A stretch of 42,781 bases of DNA, from positions 1 through 42,781 of the forward strand of contig BEHT01000031.1 of the NCBI GenBank assembly GCA_002898575.1, given 5' to 3'. The translations under genes were made by a program, and so were the position numbers. Shown here in pieces: positions 14,346-19,369 of this stretch (within the stretch, counting starts at the first letter, position 1; each line of letters opens with the position of its first letter). The notes under the pieces were generated by a model. The model was given only the letters and a program-made list of their open reading frames with translations. It made no database searches and was not told the origin of the DNA. The DNA is from a bacterium HR17 (GTDB lineage: Bacteria; Armatimonadota; Fervidibacteria; Fervidibacterales; Fervidibacteraceae).

Positions 14346-15008
14346 ATGCCCTTCACCCAACAATTGTGGCAGAGCATCGGCGCCATCTTTGCCCGAATCC
14401 TTGATCACCCGTTTTTGGCGGGGTTGACGGACGGGACTTTGGACGAAGACGCCTTCCGCTTCTATGTCGTGCAGGATGCCCTTTACCTGCGGGATTTTGC
14501 CCGCGGGTTGGCGGTGCTGGGGGCGAAAGCGCCCGACGACGAAGGGTTGGTGATGTTTTGCGACCACGCCAAAACCGCCATCGTCGTGGAACGGGCGCTG
14601 CACGAAAGTTTTTTCCGCGCATGGGGCATGAGCGCCGAGCAAGTGTGGGCGACACCGATGGCGCCGACCAATTTGCTCTACACGAGTTACCTGCTGCGGG
14701 TCGCCTACGAGCGCCCGTTTTACGAGAGCCTCGGGGCGTTTTTGCCCTGTTACTGGATTTACTGGGAAGTCGGCAAAGCCCTTGAGCAGCGGGGTTCACC
14801 CCATCCGCTTTATCGGCGCTGGATTGAGACTTACGCCAGCGCCGAGTTTGAGGGGGTCGTGCGCCAAGTCCTTGCCGTCACCGACCGCATCGCGGCGACT
14901 TTGACCGATGACCAACGCGCCGCGATGCGCCAGCATTTCGTCACGACAAGTCGCTTTGAGTGGCTCTTTTGGGACATGGCTTACCACCGCGAACAGTGGC
15001 GCATCTGA
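14346..15008 (+). CDS. tenA: TenA-family aminopyrimidine aminohydrolase (thiaminase II)
   Basis: This 220-residue protein hydrolyses aminopyrimidine breakdown products of thiamine so that the pyrimidine can be reused. With ATG 14346 as residue 1, the active-site residues fall at the numbers known from Bacillus subtilis TenA: Asp44, Tyr47, Tyr112, Cys135 (in FLPCYWIYWEVGK), Tyr139, Tyr163 and Glu205. The match supports both the function and the start. The earlier in-frame start at 14289 would add 19 residues. A ribosome site AGGGGGC precedes it. A KdsC-like phosphatase follows 21 bases on. Two other thiamine-related genes lie far downstream (33555 and 38200). No TPP riboswitch is seen in the 113-base gap before it. 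Confidence 0.92.
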   Translation: MPFTQQLWQSIGAIFARILDHPFLAGLTDGTLDEDAFRFYVVQDALYLRDFARGLAVLGAKAPDDEGLVMFCDHAKTAIVVERALHESFFRAWGMSAEQVWATPMAPTNLLYTSYLLRVAYERPFYESLGAFLPCYWIYWEVGKALEQRGSPHPLYRRWIETYASAEFEGVVRQVLAVTDRIAATLTDDQRAAMRQHFVTTSRFEWLFWDMAYHREQWRI

Positions 15009-15029
15009 GGGCGAAAGGAGCGATGGGCA

Positions 15030-15596
15030 TTGCCTTGGACGGAACGGTCGTTGCCCCCGACGGGATTGCAAGGTCTGCGGTTGCTGGTCATGGATGTGGA
15101 CGGCGTGTTGACAGGTGGCGAAATCGCGCTGTTGAGTAACGGCGCGGAAATGCGCCTGTTCAACTCGCAGGACGGCGTAGGGTTGATGGTGGCGCATTTG
15201 GCGGGGTTGCAAACGGCACTCATCACGGGGCGGGCAACGGAAGCCGTCCGCAAACGCGCCGAGGAAGTGCGCATCACGCATTTGGTCATGGGCACTTTCC
15301 AGAAGTTGCCGCCACTCCAGCAATTGTGCGACCAACTGCGGTTGCCCTTGGAGGCAGTCGCTTACATCGGCGACGATGTGCCCGATATCCCGCCGATGAA
15401 ACGCGCCGGCTTTGCCGTCGCTGTCGCTAACGCGGTGGACGAAGTGAAGCGGGTGGCGCATTACATCACGCAGCGGCGCGGCGGCGACGGCGCCGTGCGG
15501 GAAGTCGTGGAACTGATTTTGAAGGCGCAAGGTAAGTGGGAGCAAACGGTCGGTGCCTTCATCGGCGACGCTGAGTGGTTTTCGCCGATGCCGTGA
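15030..15596 (+). CDS. HAD-superfamily phosphatase of the KdsC type
   Basis: This 188-residue protein resembles 3-deoxy-D-manno-octulosonate 8-phosphate phosphatase (KdsC), a small cap-less HAD enzyme. Motif I is DVDGVLT with Asp22 and Asp24, motif II is ITGR (65-68), motif III Lys is probably Lys92 (FQKLPP), and motif IV is IGDDVPD (113-119). The FNSQDGVGL stretch (44-52) is also typical of KdsC. Other Kdo genes are absent here, so the sugar-phosphate substrate is uncertain. The start is TTG 15030, nine bases after AGGAG. An ATG seven bases earlier (15023) is in another frame and gives only a 39-codon reading frame. It is likely co-transcribed with tenA. Confidence 0.85.
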   Translation: MPWTERSLPPTGLQGLRLLVMDVDGVLTGGEIALLSNGAEMRLFNSQDGVGLMVAHLAGLQTALITGRATEAVRKRAEEVRITHLVMGTFQKLPPLQQLCDQLRLPLEAVAYIGDDVPDIPPMKRAGFAVAVANAVDEVKRVAHYITQRRGGDGAVREVVELILKAQGKWEQTVGAFIGDAEWFSPMP

Positions 15597-15619
15597 CATC
15601 AAAGGGCGATGCGTTCGGT

Positions 15620-16798
15620 TCACTCGGGCACTCGGCGGATTTCGGCGACGGTCATCTCGTAAAGGGTGCGCTTTTTGTCTTTGGCACGGGCGCGGACGAT
15701 GTACTGGTCGCGCCCGACTTTACGGTAACTCTCCAGCATGTTGCCCGCAAAGGCGCTAAGGATGCGTTCCTTCTCGCGCGGGTGCAGCCCTGTCAACTCT
15801 TGCAGCGTGACGGGGTTGAGGTCATCGGGCACTTCGTTAAGGCTTTCAAGGTGGGCGCGCAATCGGCGCAGCGCTTCCATGCACATCGTGCGACGGGCAA
15901 AATTCGTCGACGCGTAACTCCAACCGCCTGGCGCCAAGCCCAAGATTTGCAGGAGCGGGTCCAGCACATTGTTGATCGTCCATTCAATTTGCTGTAACCA
16001 GTGAGGCGGTCGCTCAAAGCGGCGGAGTTGATTAACGGTCGCCGTCAACACCCGTTGGTAATCAGGTGGCAAAGGTTGCGTGCCGGTCAGTTGGTAACCG
16101 CTGGCGGCTGCCATCTGCCCTGGCGGCGACGCCGTTTCGGTGATGGGCGTGCGAAACCGCACCGCACCGTCCACGACTTGCACCAGCGTTTGCTTGGTGT
16201 TGGGGTCATAGACGACGCGAAAACCGGTGCCCCGCACCGCTGCGACAGCGGTCGGGGTGCAGACCGTCGCTTGGGAGCGGACACCGAAAAATTGCGAGAC
16301 ATACGCGACCGCCGCGCCGAACCGCACCATGAACGAGCGGTCGCGCAAACCACCCCGCACGAAGTCCAATAGCCGCACCTCAAATTCGGTGTTCGGCTCT
16401 AACTGGATAGCGCTGCCATCGGGGAAGACCAAAGTCGCGGTGCCGTTAACGCCTGTTCGCACGACATCTTTGTCCCGCAGCGCCATGTCCATGCTGGCAA
16501 CGACCCAACGGTTACTGCCGCGTTGCAAGACCATGACCGAACCAGCGAAGGCGACCAAGGTTGCCTTGAACTCCTTCGCCTCTCGTCGCACGCCGTCGCC
16601 GACGAGGATGACGAGGAGGGCGACAACGATGAAGACAAGCGTTTTGACCCAACGGGGCACTTCCCGTAACCAGGCGAACCAGTCGCGGCGGCGTTTGCGA
16701 CGCTCTTTGCGGATGTGCTCTCGTTCGGCTTCTTTCAGGATCTCCGCCAACCGTTCGGCATCACTTTGGGGCTTGGTCTTGGCGGACCGGCGCCACAT
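15620..16798 (-). CDS. FecR-domain membrane protein, partner of the CHASE2 cyclase
   Basis: This 392-residue protein starts with a very basic cytoplasmic segment (KEAEREHIRKERRKRRRD), followed by one membrane helix near residues 51-70 (VKTLVFIVVALLVILVG) and an external FecR domain at about 80-210. The latter has the typical GNGTATL-like NGTATLVFPDGSAIQLEPNTEFEV and AVRGTGFRVVYDP blocks. The C-terminal 150 residues are mostly helical and unassigned. FecR domains usually sense or transmit envelope signals; here the partner is likely the cyclase rather than a sigma factor. AGGAGGTGA lies seven bases before ATG 16798. The start lies inside the cyclase gene (38-base overlap), so the two are co-expressed. 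Confidence 0.85.
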   Translation of the reverse strand: MWRRSAKTKPQSDAERLAEILKEAEREHIRKERRKRRRDWFAWLREVPRWVKTLVFIVVALLVILVGDGVRREAKEFKATLVAFAGSVMVLQRGSNRWVVASMDMALRDKDVVRTGVNGTATLVFPDGSAIQLEPNTEFEVRLLDFVRGGLRDRSFMVRFGAAVAYVSQFFGVRSQATVCTPTAVAAVRGTGFRVVYDPNTKQTLVQVVDGAVRFRTPITETASPPGQMAAASGYQLTGTQPLPPDYQRVLTATVNQLRRFERPPHWLQQIEWTINNVLDPLLQILGLAPGGWSYASTNFARRTMCMEALRRLRAHLESLNEVPDDLNPVTLQELTGLHPREKERILSAFAGNMLESYRKVGRDQYIVRARAKDKKRTLYEMTVAEIRRVPE

Positions 16799-18719
16799 CG
16801 CTCGTCACCTCCTGAGAGGCGTGACGGCGGCGGACAGCGAAAACCCGCACGGGTTGCGCCCGCCCCCGCACGGTCACGGAGCCTAAATCGGTGAACGCGA
16901 CCGCATCGCCCAACGCTTTTTCGGATTCATCCCGCACCGCCTCGCTGACGATGAGCGGGGCTTGAAAATCTTTGGTCATCGTTTGCAAGCGCGCCGCCAA
17001 GTTCACCGTGTCGCCCAACGCCGTGTATTGCACGCGTTGCGCTGACCCGATGTTACCGACCATCGCTTCGCCGACATGAACGCCGATACCGATGCGAAAA
17101 GTTGGCAACCCTTGTCGCTGCCAATGGACGTTCAACCGTTCTAACCGTTCCAGCATTTCCAGCGCGGACGCAACGGCAAGGGCGCTGAGGTTGGCGTCAT
17201 CGGGTAGAAACGGTCCAAACAGCCCCATGACAGCATCGCCGATGAACTTGTCCAGAACGCCCCGATGGTTCTGAACGGCTGCCGTCATCTCGGTCAGATA
17301 TTCGCGCATTTGTCGCACGACCAATTCGGGCGGGTTTTGCTCGGAGTAAGTCGTGAAACCGCGAATGTCGGAGAAGAGGACAGCGACGCGACGGCGCACC
17401 CCTTCCTGATGGGCAGTGGCAGGGTTTTGGACAATCTCTTCCACCAGTTCAGGGGCGACATAGAGCGAGAAGGTTTGGCGGATTTGACGCTTTTGTGCCT
17501 CTTCTTGCGCCAAGCGGTGTAAGCCCATTAGCAAAGTCGCACTCAACCATGCCATCAGGGGTGTGCCCCACTGCGGCAACCGTTGCCCCCACCAAAAGGC
17601 TCCCTCCATCGCAGCGATGAGTCCGAGCAGCGCCGCCGTCGCCCCAACGGTCGCTGGGCGCACGCCCATCGTCGTGTAAAGCCAACAAGGGGCGCCGACC
17701 GCTAACGCAATCAGTAGCCATTGCAGCGCAAGGGGCAAAGGGCGGACAGGCGGAAGGTGGAGCAAGTTGGCGAGGATTTCGGCGTTCAACTCCACGCCGC
17801 GCAGCCCGTTGTCCAGTGGGGTCGGGCGGATGTCGGTCGTGCCCGTTGCCGTTTCACCGACCAGCACAATTTTGCCCGCAAACTTTTCGGGCGGCATCGT
17901 TAACGCATCCACAAAACTGACCGTCGGCACGGATGCGCCTACTCCTGTAAAGCGGTCACTGCGCCGAGCGATAGGGCGCAAATGCAACACGCCATCGTCC
18001 AACGAGATCCGGCGCTGCCCCCACCGTAAGGTGAGCGGGTTTGGATGCACAGCGTCGTCCAGAGGCACGCCCTGCGCCACGCAAGCAACCGCCAACGCGA
18101 AATGCGGCATCAACTTCCCCGCGTTGGTCTGGCGCAACAGCACTGGTGCCCGATAAACGCCGTCAGGGTCGGCGTTGACATCAGCGTAACCGACGGCGAC
18201 AGCGGCATCCAACAGCGGCGACAATGGCGGTTGAAACGCGGCGGCGAAAGTGACGGGCAAAATGACACCTCGCGGTGCAGCGGGTAACTTCGTCATGAGG
18301 CGTTCCGTCGCTTGACGCCCCTGAGCGGAGAGGAGGCGACCCTGCCACTGGTAAAAGGGCAAAACGACCCGCCCATGGCGACGAAGGGCTTGGGCGAGCG
18401 CCTCATCGCCTGCCAGGTCGCGCTCATCGGGTTCAGCGAACAAAATGTCAATGCCGACGGCTTTCGCGTGCCGCAGGTGGTCTAAAAGTTCGGCGTAGCG
18501 GCGGCGCGACCAATAGCGCAAGCGCCCTAACCGTTGCACGCTCTTGTCATCAATGGCGACAATGACGATGTCGTCGGGGAACGCAGGGGGGCGCAACGCC
18601 GTTTGCCAGCGCCAGTGGACATCCATCAGCCAACGGCTCAAACTGGTGGTGACGCCCAACCCCTTCGCCGCCGCCATCACCAGTAGCACGCCGATAAGCC
18701 CCTGCTGCCATGTGGGCAT
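16761..18719 (-). CDS. CHASE2-domain adenylate/guanylate cyclase (class III)
   Basis: This 652-residue membrane protein joins an extracytoplasmic CHASE2 sensor (about residues 30-320, with DDIVIVAIDDKSVQRLGRL and VLVGETATGTTDIRPTPLD) to about three membrane helices (about 325-400) and a class III cyclase domain (about 430-620). The catalytic motifs are FSDIRGFTTYSE with the first metal Asp, DKFIGDAVMGLFG with the base-recognising Lys and second metal Asp, and YTALGDTVNLAARL with the transition-state Asn/Arg. The Lys and the LGDTVN context favour adenylate over guanylate, so cAMP is the likely product. It lies in an operon with the FecR gene. GAGGTGA precedes the ATG. The promoter region holds a consensus CRP-like site. 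Confidence 0.9.
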   Translation of the reverse strand: MPTWQQGLIGVLLVMAAAKGLGVTTSLSRWLMDVHWRWQTALRPPAFPDDIVIVAIDDKSVQRLGRLRYWSRRRYAELLDHLRHAKAVGIDILFAEPDERDLAGDEALAQALRRHGRVVLPFYQWQGRLLSAQGRQATERLMTKLPAAPRGVILPVTFAAAFQPPLSPLLDAAVAVGYADVNADPDGVYRAPVLLRQTNAGKLMPHFALAVACVAQGVPLDDAVHPNPLTLRWGQRRISLDDGVLHLRPIARRSDRFTGVGASVPTVSFVDALTMPPEKFAGKIVLVGETATGTTDIRPTPLDNGLRGVELNAEILANLLHLPPVRPLPLALQWLLIALAVGAPCWLYTTMGVRPATVGATAALLGLIAAMEGAFWWGQRLPQWGTPLMAWLSATLLMGLHRLAQEEAQKRQIRQTFSLYVAPELVEEIVQNPATAHQEGVRRRVAVLFSDIRGFTTYSEQNPPELVVRQMREYLTEMTAAVQNHRGVLDKFIGDAVMGLFGPFLPDDANLSALAVASALEMLERLERLNVHWQRQGLPTFRIGIGVHVGEAMVGNIGSAQRVQYTALGDTVNLAARLQTMTKDFQAPLIVSEAVRDESEKALGDAVAFTDLGSVTVRGRAQPVRVFAVRRRHASQEVTSDVAPVRQDQAPK

Positions 18720-18754
18720 GCCCTGTCACCTCAGCGAGGGAGGGAACCGATGCC

Positions 18755-18798
18755 GTTATGCCACAAACGCACGCTTACCTTCTGTGACGGCTGTCACA
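18755..18798 (-). promoter_or_regulatory. Cyclase promoter with a CRP-type operator (TGTGA-N6-TCACA)
   Basis: On the minus strand TGTGACAGCCGTCACA (18798-18783) is a perfect TGTGA-N6-TCACA palindrome, the consensus for CRP-type cAMP receptor proteins. Downstream, TGGCATAAC gives an extended -10 (CATAAC at 18760-18755). The predicted start is near 18748, which puts the site centre about 42 bases upstream, the position of class II CRP activation. No -35 hexamer is visible (AGAAGG at the expected place), as expected for an activator-dependent promoter. The palindrome begins one base past the stop of the upstream gene and might instead form a weak RNA hairpin. Confidence 0.5.
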
Positions 18799-18799
18799 C

Positions 18800-19369
18800 T
18801 TAACGAGGGGGTGGCAGCGGCTTGAACAACACTTCGCCCCGCTCTCGCAACGCCCGCAACTCGTCGGGCGTCACCGCCATCGTGGAGCCGTCGGCAAAGA
18901 GCAAGTAAATCTTGCCGTCGTGGCGTCCCTTTGCGGGGATGTCGTTGCCCGTGCCGGTGGCGTTGCGGCGCTTTTGAGCCGTCTCGTAGATGAGGACGAC
19001 CTTGCTTTGCGGATACATCTCAGGATGCCAACGGGGCGTTTGGTGCTCGGCGTCCCATGCGTAGGCGTTCATGGCGTAACCGTAGCCGCCTTGCGGTTCC
19101 AGTTTCGGGCAGCGGAAGACAAAGGGGCGCTGGCTGGGTGGGACGAATTCTTCCAGCGCATCGCACCAAGTTGGAGCGGGCGGGAGCAAGTTGTCGGAGC
19201 GTTCCAAGTAAAGTTGCAACGCCATCGCCAACCGCCCCAACCGCGACTCGCACAGTTTCGCCAGTTGCTCCTCCCGCTGCCGCTCCAAACGGGGGCGCAA
19301 CACCCGCAGCGATACGACCATGAGCGCGATGCCGATAACCACGATGAGGGCAACCGTGCTGCCACGCAT
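18800..19369 (-). CDS. Pilin-like protein with H-X9-DG motif
   Basis: This 189-residue protein has one N-terminal membrane helix (STVALIVVIGIALMVVSLRVL), a helical stretch (LESRL-like spine, residues 25-60) and a globular part that ends with HDGKIYLLFADG. That last segment is exactly the H-X9-DG motif of the DUF1559 family of prepilin-like proteins, abundant in Planctomycetota and Armatimonadota. The normal prepilin cleavage sequence (G followed by FTLIE) is missing, and no Glu5 equivalent can be found, so processing by a prepilin peptidase is doubtful. ATG 19369 follows GGGGTGA. It lies upstream of the cyclase gene on the same strand with an 80-base gap that contains its own promoter. Confidence 0.8.
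   Translation of the reverse strand: MRGSTVALIVVIGIALMVVSLRVLRPRLERQREEQLAKLCESRLGRLAMALQLYLERSDNLLPPAPTWCDALEEFVPPSQRPFVFRCPKLEPQGGYGYAMNAYAWDAEHQTPRWHPEMYPQSKVVLIYETAQKRRNATGTGNDIPAKGRHDGKIYLLFADGSTMAVTPDELRALRERGEVLFKPLPPPR

Follow-up and report, generated by a model that had tools for sequence, protein, structure and literature searches.

A consensus CRP-type palindrome before a CHASE2 adenylate cyclase gene in bacterium HR17 as a candidate class II operator

Introduction

Does a consensus CRP-type palindrome that lies directly before an adenylate cyclase gene in bacterium HR17 (Armatimonadota) work as an operator, such that cyclic AMP would raise the expression of an enzyme that makes it? 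In E. coli, class II CRP promoters carry TGTGA-N6-TCACA near -41.5 and have no good -35, and an earlier sequence-only reading of this locus had proposed the same geometry here. The window (the whole stretch of DNA that was analysed, 42,781 nucleotides of contig BEHT01000031.1) holds the locus on its minus strand, with these features:

18783..18798, minus strand: CRP-like palindrome TGTGACAGCCGTCACA, candidate operator, intergenic, centre at about -42.5
18754..18762, minus strand: extended -10, TGG-CATAAC, predicted start near 18747
16761..18719, minus strand: P0001, CHASE2 and class III adenylate cyclase, 652 aa (Pfam CHASE2 E 2e-51, Guanylate_cyc E 4e-20)
15620..16798, minus strand: FecR-domain protein, 392 aa, second gene of a putative operon; an overlapping pair also occurs in the relative SKYB58 (63% identity)
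18800..19369, minus strand: upstream co-directional gene, about 190 aa, no Pfam match; its TAA (18800-18802) is 1 base from the palindrome

Results

The palindrome and the cyclase promoter

A pattern search for exact TGTGA-N6-TCACA revealed a single occurrence within the window, TGTGACAGCCGTCACA, located in the 80 bases (18720-18799) that separate the CHASE2 adenylate cyclase gene from the stop codon of the gene before it, so that the minus strand reads TAA-G-TGTGACAGCCGTCACA-22 bases-CATAAC-leader-ATG 18719. The match to the consensus is exact, and the sequence-only reading had both the sequence and the coordinates of this site right. Judged by its domains and catalytic residues, P0001 is a CHASE2 class III adenylate cyclase: among solved structures its best matches are bacterial adenylate cyclases, and the adenine-type Lys and the metal Asp are aligned (FSDIRGF, DKFIGDAVM). 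The cyclase gene shares 38 bases (16761-16798) with the FecR-domain gene, an arrangement kept in SKYB58. A 275-aa open reading frame at 14796-15623 was considered as a further operon member and dropped, since over that stretch the coding model favours the other strand.

The hexamer CATAAC lies at 18759-18754, directly preceded by TGG and 22 bases after the palindrome. Placing this hexamer at -12 to -7 puts +1 at 18747 and the palindrome centre at -42.5, 1 base off the textbook -41.5, and leaves a leader of about 27 bases that contains GAGGTGA before ATG 18719. The promoter thus has a -10 and no -35: the promoter scan returned none at the cyclase, and the best hexamer at a 16-18 base spacer was CAGAAG. 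These values agree with the earlier proposal of a centre some 42 bases upstream of the extended -10 start with no -35 present.

Counts of the motif in the genome

It is somewhat unlikely, in our judgement, that the palindrome is there by chance, with the cyclase transcribed constitutively from an extended -10 promoter independent of any -35 and of CRP proteins. The genome-wide counts favour this reading. Across the whole 3.15 Mb genome (G000), exact sites number three, which equals expectation (1.8-2.8, with 2.8 by the first-order model), so the count is ordinary and shows no enrichment; a reversed-pattern control gave 0 exact matches. The chance estimate of the sequence-only reading is accordingly fair for a single position but does not carry over to the genome, where the count is not raised. 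Against chance, each of the three exact sites falls in intergenic DNA ahead of a gene, with an intergenic share of 7-14% in the sampled DNA and with intergenic calls that rest on a simple coding model built for this analysis. A chance site would also need to land before one of only three cyclases, as the genome has two further class III cyclases besides P0001; neither of these adjoins a site with at most one mismatch among 50 of the 54 such sites listed.

The 12-base form TGTGAC-N4-GTCACA occurs twice in the genome (in the window and on contig C28) versus 0.23 expected. Sites with at most one mismatch outnumber those of the reversed pattern in this genome (54 vs 31) and in the relative G002 (48 vs 29) but not in G003 (21 vs 22); a regulon, should one exist, is therefore small and poorly delimited. 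Just past one of the exact palindromes lies a tandem array of a 77-base unit (L001 1635-2257; 8.1 copies, 95% matches).

Orthologous cyclase promoters

Cyclase orthologues were found in SKYB58 (the same genome as G002; 58-60% identity) and in G001 (52%). The palindrome is missing before both, which went against the conservation that the sequence-only reading had named as a check and which makes the site look species-specific; that the -10 is conserved in orthologues and the palindrome is not also favours a chance origin. Upstream of the SKYB58 orthologue TGTGGCATAAYGGCA is conserved, and TGTGGCATAATGGCA is kept there despite a different upstream gene, with TTGAAA 18 bases before the -10 hexamer. 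In G001, TGGCATAATG lies about 200 bases before the cyclase start codon and is preceded by TTTACA across a 17-base spacer. Both orthologues therefore retain the extended -10 and pair it with a -35 box that matches at 5/6 positions, and the three cyclase promoters share a -10 that comes with a palindrome and no -35 here and with a -35 and no palindrome in the relatives. This alternation over a shared -10 fits a species-specific switch to activator dependence. SKYB58 has a TGTGAC half-site within 1 base of the aligned palindrome position; it could be the relic of a palindrome, an early stage of one or a coincidence. In G004, a CHASE2 cyclase that is more distant (L025) has an upstream region too diverged for alignment, and near the 83-aa gene in the relatives there was no palindrome with two or fewer mismatches.

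The same motif elsewhere in the genus

For palindromes with no or one mismatch in this genome and in two genus relatives, we scored -10 elements by their distance from the site. Strong -10 elements at a gap of 21-22 numbered six versus a mean of 0.7 per gap, and with exact palindromes only and the window excluded, -10 elements (at least 5/6) at this gap numbered 3 versus 0.15 expected from the other gaps. When the letters of the hexamer were reordered, 1 of 19 other orders matched this result. Few sites are involved and the criterion was fixed once some of them had been seen, so the support from spacing is moderate.

Among these sites, an Flp pilin gene of G003 is preceded by the palindrome (L193 1201-1216) at a 21-base gap to CATAAT, and a Tad pilus protein gene of G002 by a one-mismatch site (L167 1201-1216) at a gap of 21 to TGG-CATAAT, each centred at -41.5; a link between cAMP and pili is possible from this pair. 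No such palindrome precedes the Flp pilin genes of G000 and G001, and the one exact site of G001 is intragenic. In G002, an exact palindrome precedes a NusG-like gene at a gap of 21-22 and lies inside the end of the preceding gene, and on contig C279 a further exact site is followed by TGC-TATAAT at a gap of 21-22, with no clear gene called close behind. Gene calls in the relatives come from coding models retrained for each of them, as the G000 model was unsuited; that of G003 is weak. SKYB58 also carries two exact palindromes about 680 bases apart (L042 1501 and 2179, the first being L195 1268) that flank a NusG-like gene, near a stretch related to a protein from the C28 polysaccharide locus of the genome studied here.

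The C28 site TGTGACTTCTGTCACA (L131 1201-1216) and a one-mismatch site in G002, TGTGATTTCAATCACG (L098 2001-2016), both precede genes for nucleotide-sugar dehydrogenases that share 75% identity. A footprint kept before orthologous genes speaks for use of the motif in the genus and for a connection with surface polysaccharide. The sequence-only reading had suggested looking for the site before other genes; it is indeed there, with class II-like spacing that recurs at exact sites in the genus, and both this recurrence and the conserved footprint speak against chance.

Activation or repression

A genuine CRP-type operator could instead repress, by covering the -35 region and blocking polymerase, which would make the cAMP feedback negative; we consider this improbable. 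It draws on the placement of the exact sites, all three of which overlap the -35 region in this genome (centres -35.5 to -44.5, the other two at -44.5 and -35.5 unlike the -42.5 of the cyclase), and on the C28 promoter, where a good -35, TTGACG, follows the palindrome immediately and no activator would therefore be needed. The cyclase, however, has no -35 to block, and its palindrome-free relatives have one, such that a gain of activator dependence fits better. As the -35 is absent at the cyclase, activation is favoured over repression, and we infer both this direction of control and the identity of the regulator.

Candidate regulators

The genome encodes three CRP/FNR proteins (P0003, P0004 and P0005). 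In CRP, cAMP is contacted by E72, R82, S83, T127 and S128. P0003 (233 aa) combines a cNMP-binding domain (PF00027, E 2e-23) with a Crp-type helix-turn-helix (PF13545, E 3e-12) and is 31% identical to E. coli CRP; E72, R82, S83 and T127 are aligned and S128 is replaced by Asp. Its recognition helix reads RETASR versus RETVGR in E. coli, with R180, E181 and R185, the residues named as DNA-reading in CRP (PMC10127613), all aligned. A regulator of the crp/fnr type that the sequence-only reading had proposed to look for is thus present, with cAMP-binding and TGTGA-reading residues. The best solved relative of P0003 is a Crp-family regulator (4ev0), and its score lies below the curated CRP equivalog cut-off (PRK11753, 75.9 bits vs 266); by sequence, P0003 is CRP-like and no orthologue of E. 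coli CRP. Within 250 bases upstream of its own gene there is no site with three or fewer mismatches. Contig C24 encodes a 752-aa protein with three cyclic-nucleotide-binding domain matches (L104 1251-3509).

An orthologue of P0003 is present in G001 (54%) and keeps RETASR; none was found in G002 or G003, each about 62% complete, or in G004, so the pairing of regulator and site is one that we infer. This distribution would suit a reader other than P0003 that does not sense cAMP, namely the FNR-like P0004 or P0005: G002 has palindromes and a P0004 orthologue, and its P0003 orthologue was not found. Such a reader is nevertheless very unlikely, as R180, the residue by which the first G of TGTGA is read, has no equivalent in P0004, and neither R185 nor R82 has one in P0005.

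An RNA hairpin or terminator ending the upstream gene, to which a palindrome starting 1 base past the stop codon and a local fold with a 6-bp stem and a 4-base loop (-7.2 kcal/mol, z -2.6) might point, was rejected as extremely improbable, since there is no T run and no terminator match, the fold is not dominant in a longer transcript (z -0.3), and any such DNA palindrome folds.

Discussion

The sequence itself shows the palindrome, its distance from an extended -10 that is conserved, the lack of a -35 and a regulator that carries the residues needed. The palindrome is probably a functional CRP-type operator. The account we lean towards, with a confidence that falls just short of even, is that it is an operator for a CRP-family regulator, likeliest P0003, through which cAMP-bound P0003 activates the cyclase-fecR operon in class II fashion within a species-specific positive loop. 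P0003, encoded elsewhere in the genome, would bind the -35 region of the cyclase-fecR promoter when loaded with cAMP and recruit RNA polymerase as at class II sites. cAMP made by P0001 or by the two other cyclases would then lead to more cyclase expression, and the loop would sit within a small regulon that may cover a polysaccharide gene here and Flp/Tad pilus genes in the relatives. Against this account stand the chance-level count of exact sites, the lack of the palindrome before both cyclase orthologues, before the Flp pilin genes of G000 and G001 and near the 83-aa gene in relatives, the different spacing at the other two exact sites of G000, the single intragenic exact site of G001 despite its P0003 orthologue, the P0003 orthologues not found in the incomplete G002 and G003, and the lack of a site before the P0003 gene. 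A positive cAMP loop is plausible from the sequence; since two other class III cyclases are present, a feedback loop presupposes that P0001 supplies the cAMP. That the operon moved from -35-driven to CRP-driven expression by way of a perfect operator, yielding a cAMP switch that amplifies itself and controls a regulon of surface lifestyle, is a bolder version that we hold to be unlikely.

If true, this account would provide a testable cAMP-CRP regulon in Armatimonadota, a phylum for which a limited literature search gave nothing relevant, as well as a clear case of regulator dependence that differs between close species while the -10 is kept. Positive feedback of a cyclase on its own gene would be predicted to give switch-like behaviour.

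Comparison with known systems

The cyclase promoter resembles E. coli class II promoters in having the consensus site and no good -35; its centre, predicted at -42.5, would lie near their -41.5, and P0003 shares only 31% identity with E. coli CRP. In E. coli, CRP-cAMP exerts negative feedback on cyaA, which encodes a class I cyclase. The locus here shares with cyaA a CRP-type control on an adenylate cyclase gene, whereas the feedback predicted here is positive and acts on a class III CHASE2 cyclase.

The closest parallel lies in Sinorhizobium meliloti, where the CHASE2 cyclases CyaD1, CyaD2 and CyaK feed the CRP-family activator Clr (PMC5498481, PMC10127613, PMC13001267). Targets of Clr include the cyclase gene cyaF2, the FecR-domain gene SMc02177 and exopolysaccharide synthesis, and at most Clr-activated promoters the distance from site to start is -42 to -76 (PMC5498481, PMC10127613, PMC13001267). 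The overlap of a CHASE2 cyclase gene with a FecR-domain gene in our locus recalls this system. Clr reads TGTT-N8-AACA-type sites and is without E181, whereas P0003 has RETASR and the site here is of the E. coli consensus type. Because Clr activates cyaF2, which has a Clr site (PMC5498481), the predicted loop is of a known kind; each of its components is known, and for cyaF2 the control of a cyclase gene by a CRP-type protein has already been reported. Compared with the Clr system, the site described here stands on the CHASE2 cyclase operon itself, and in a different phylum.
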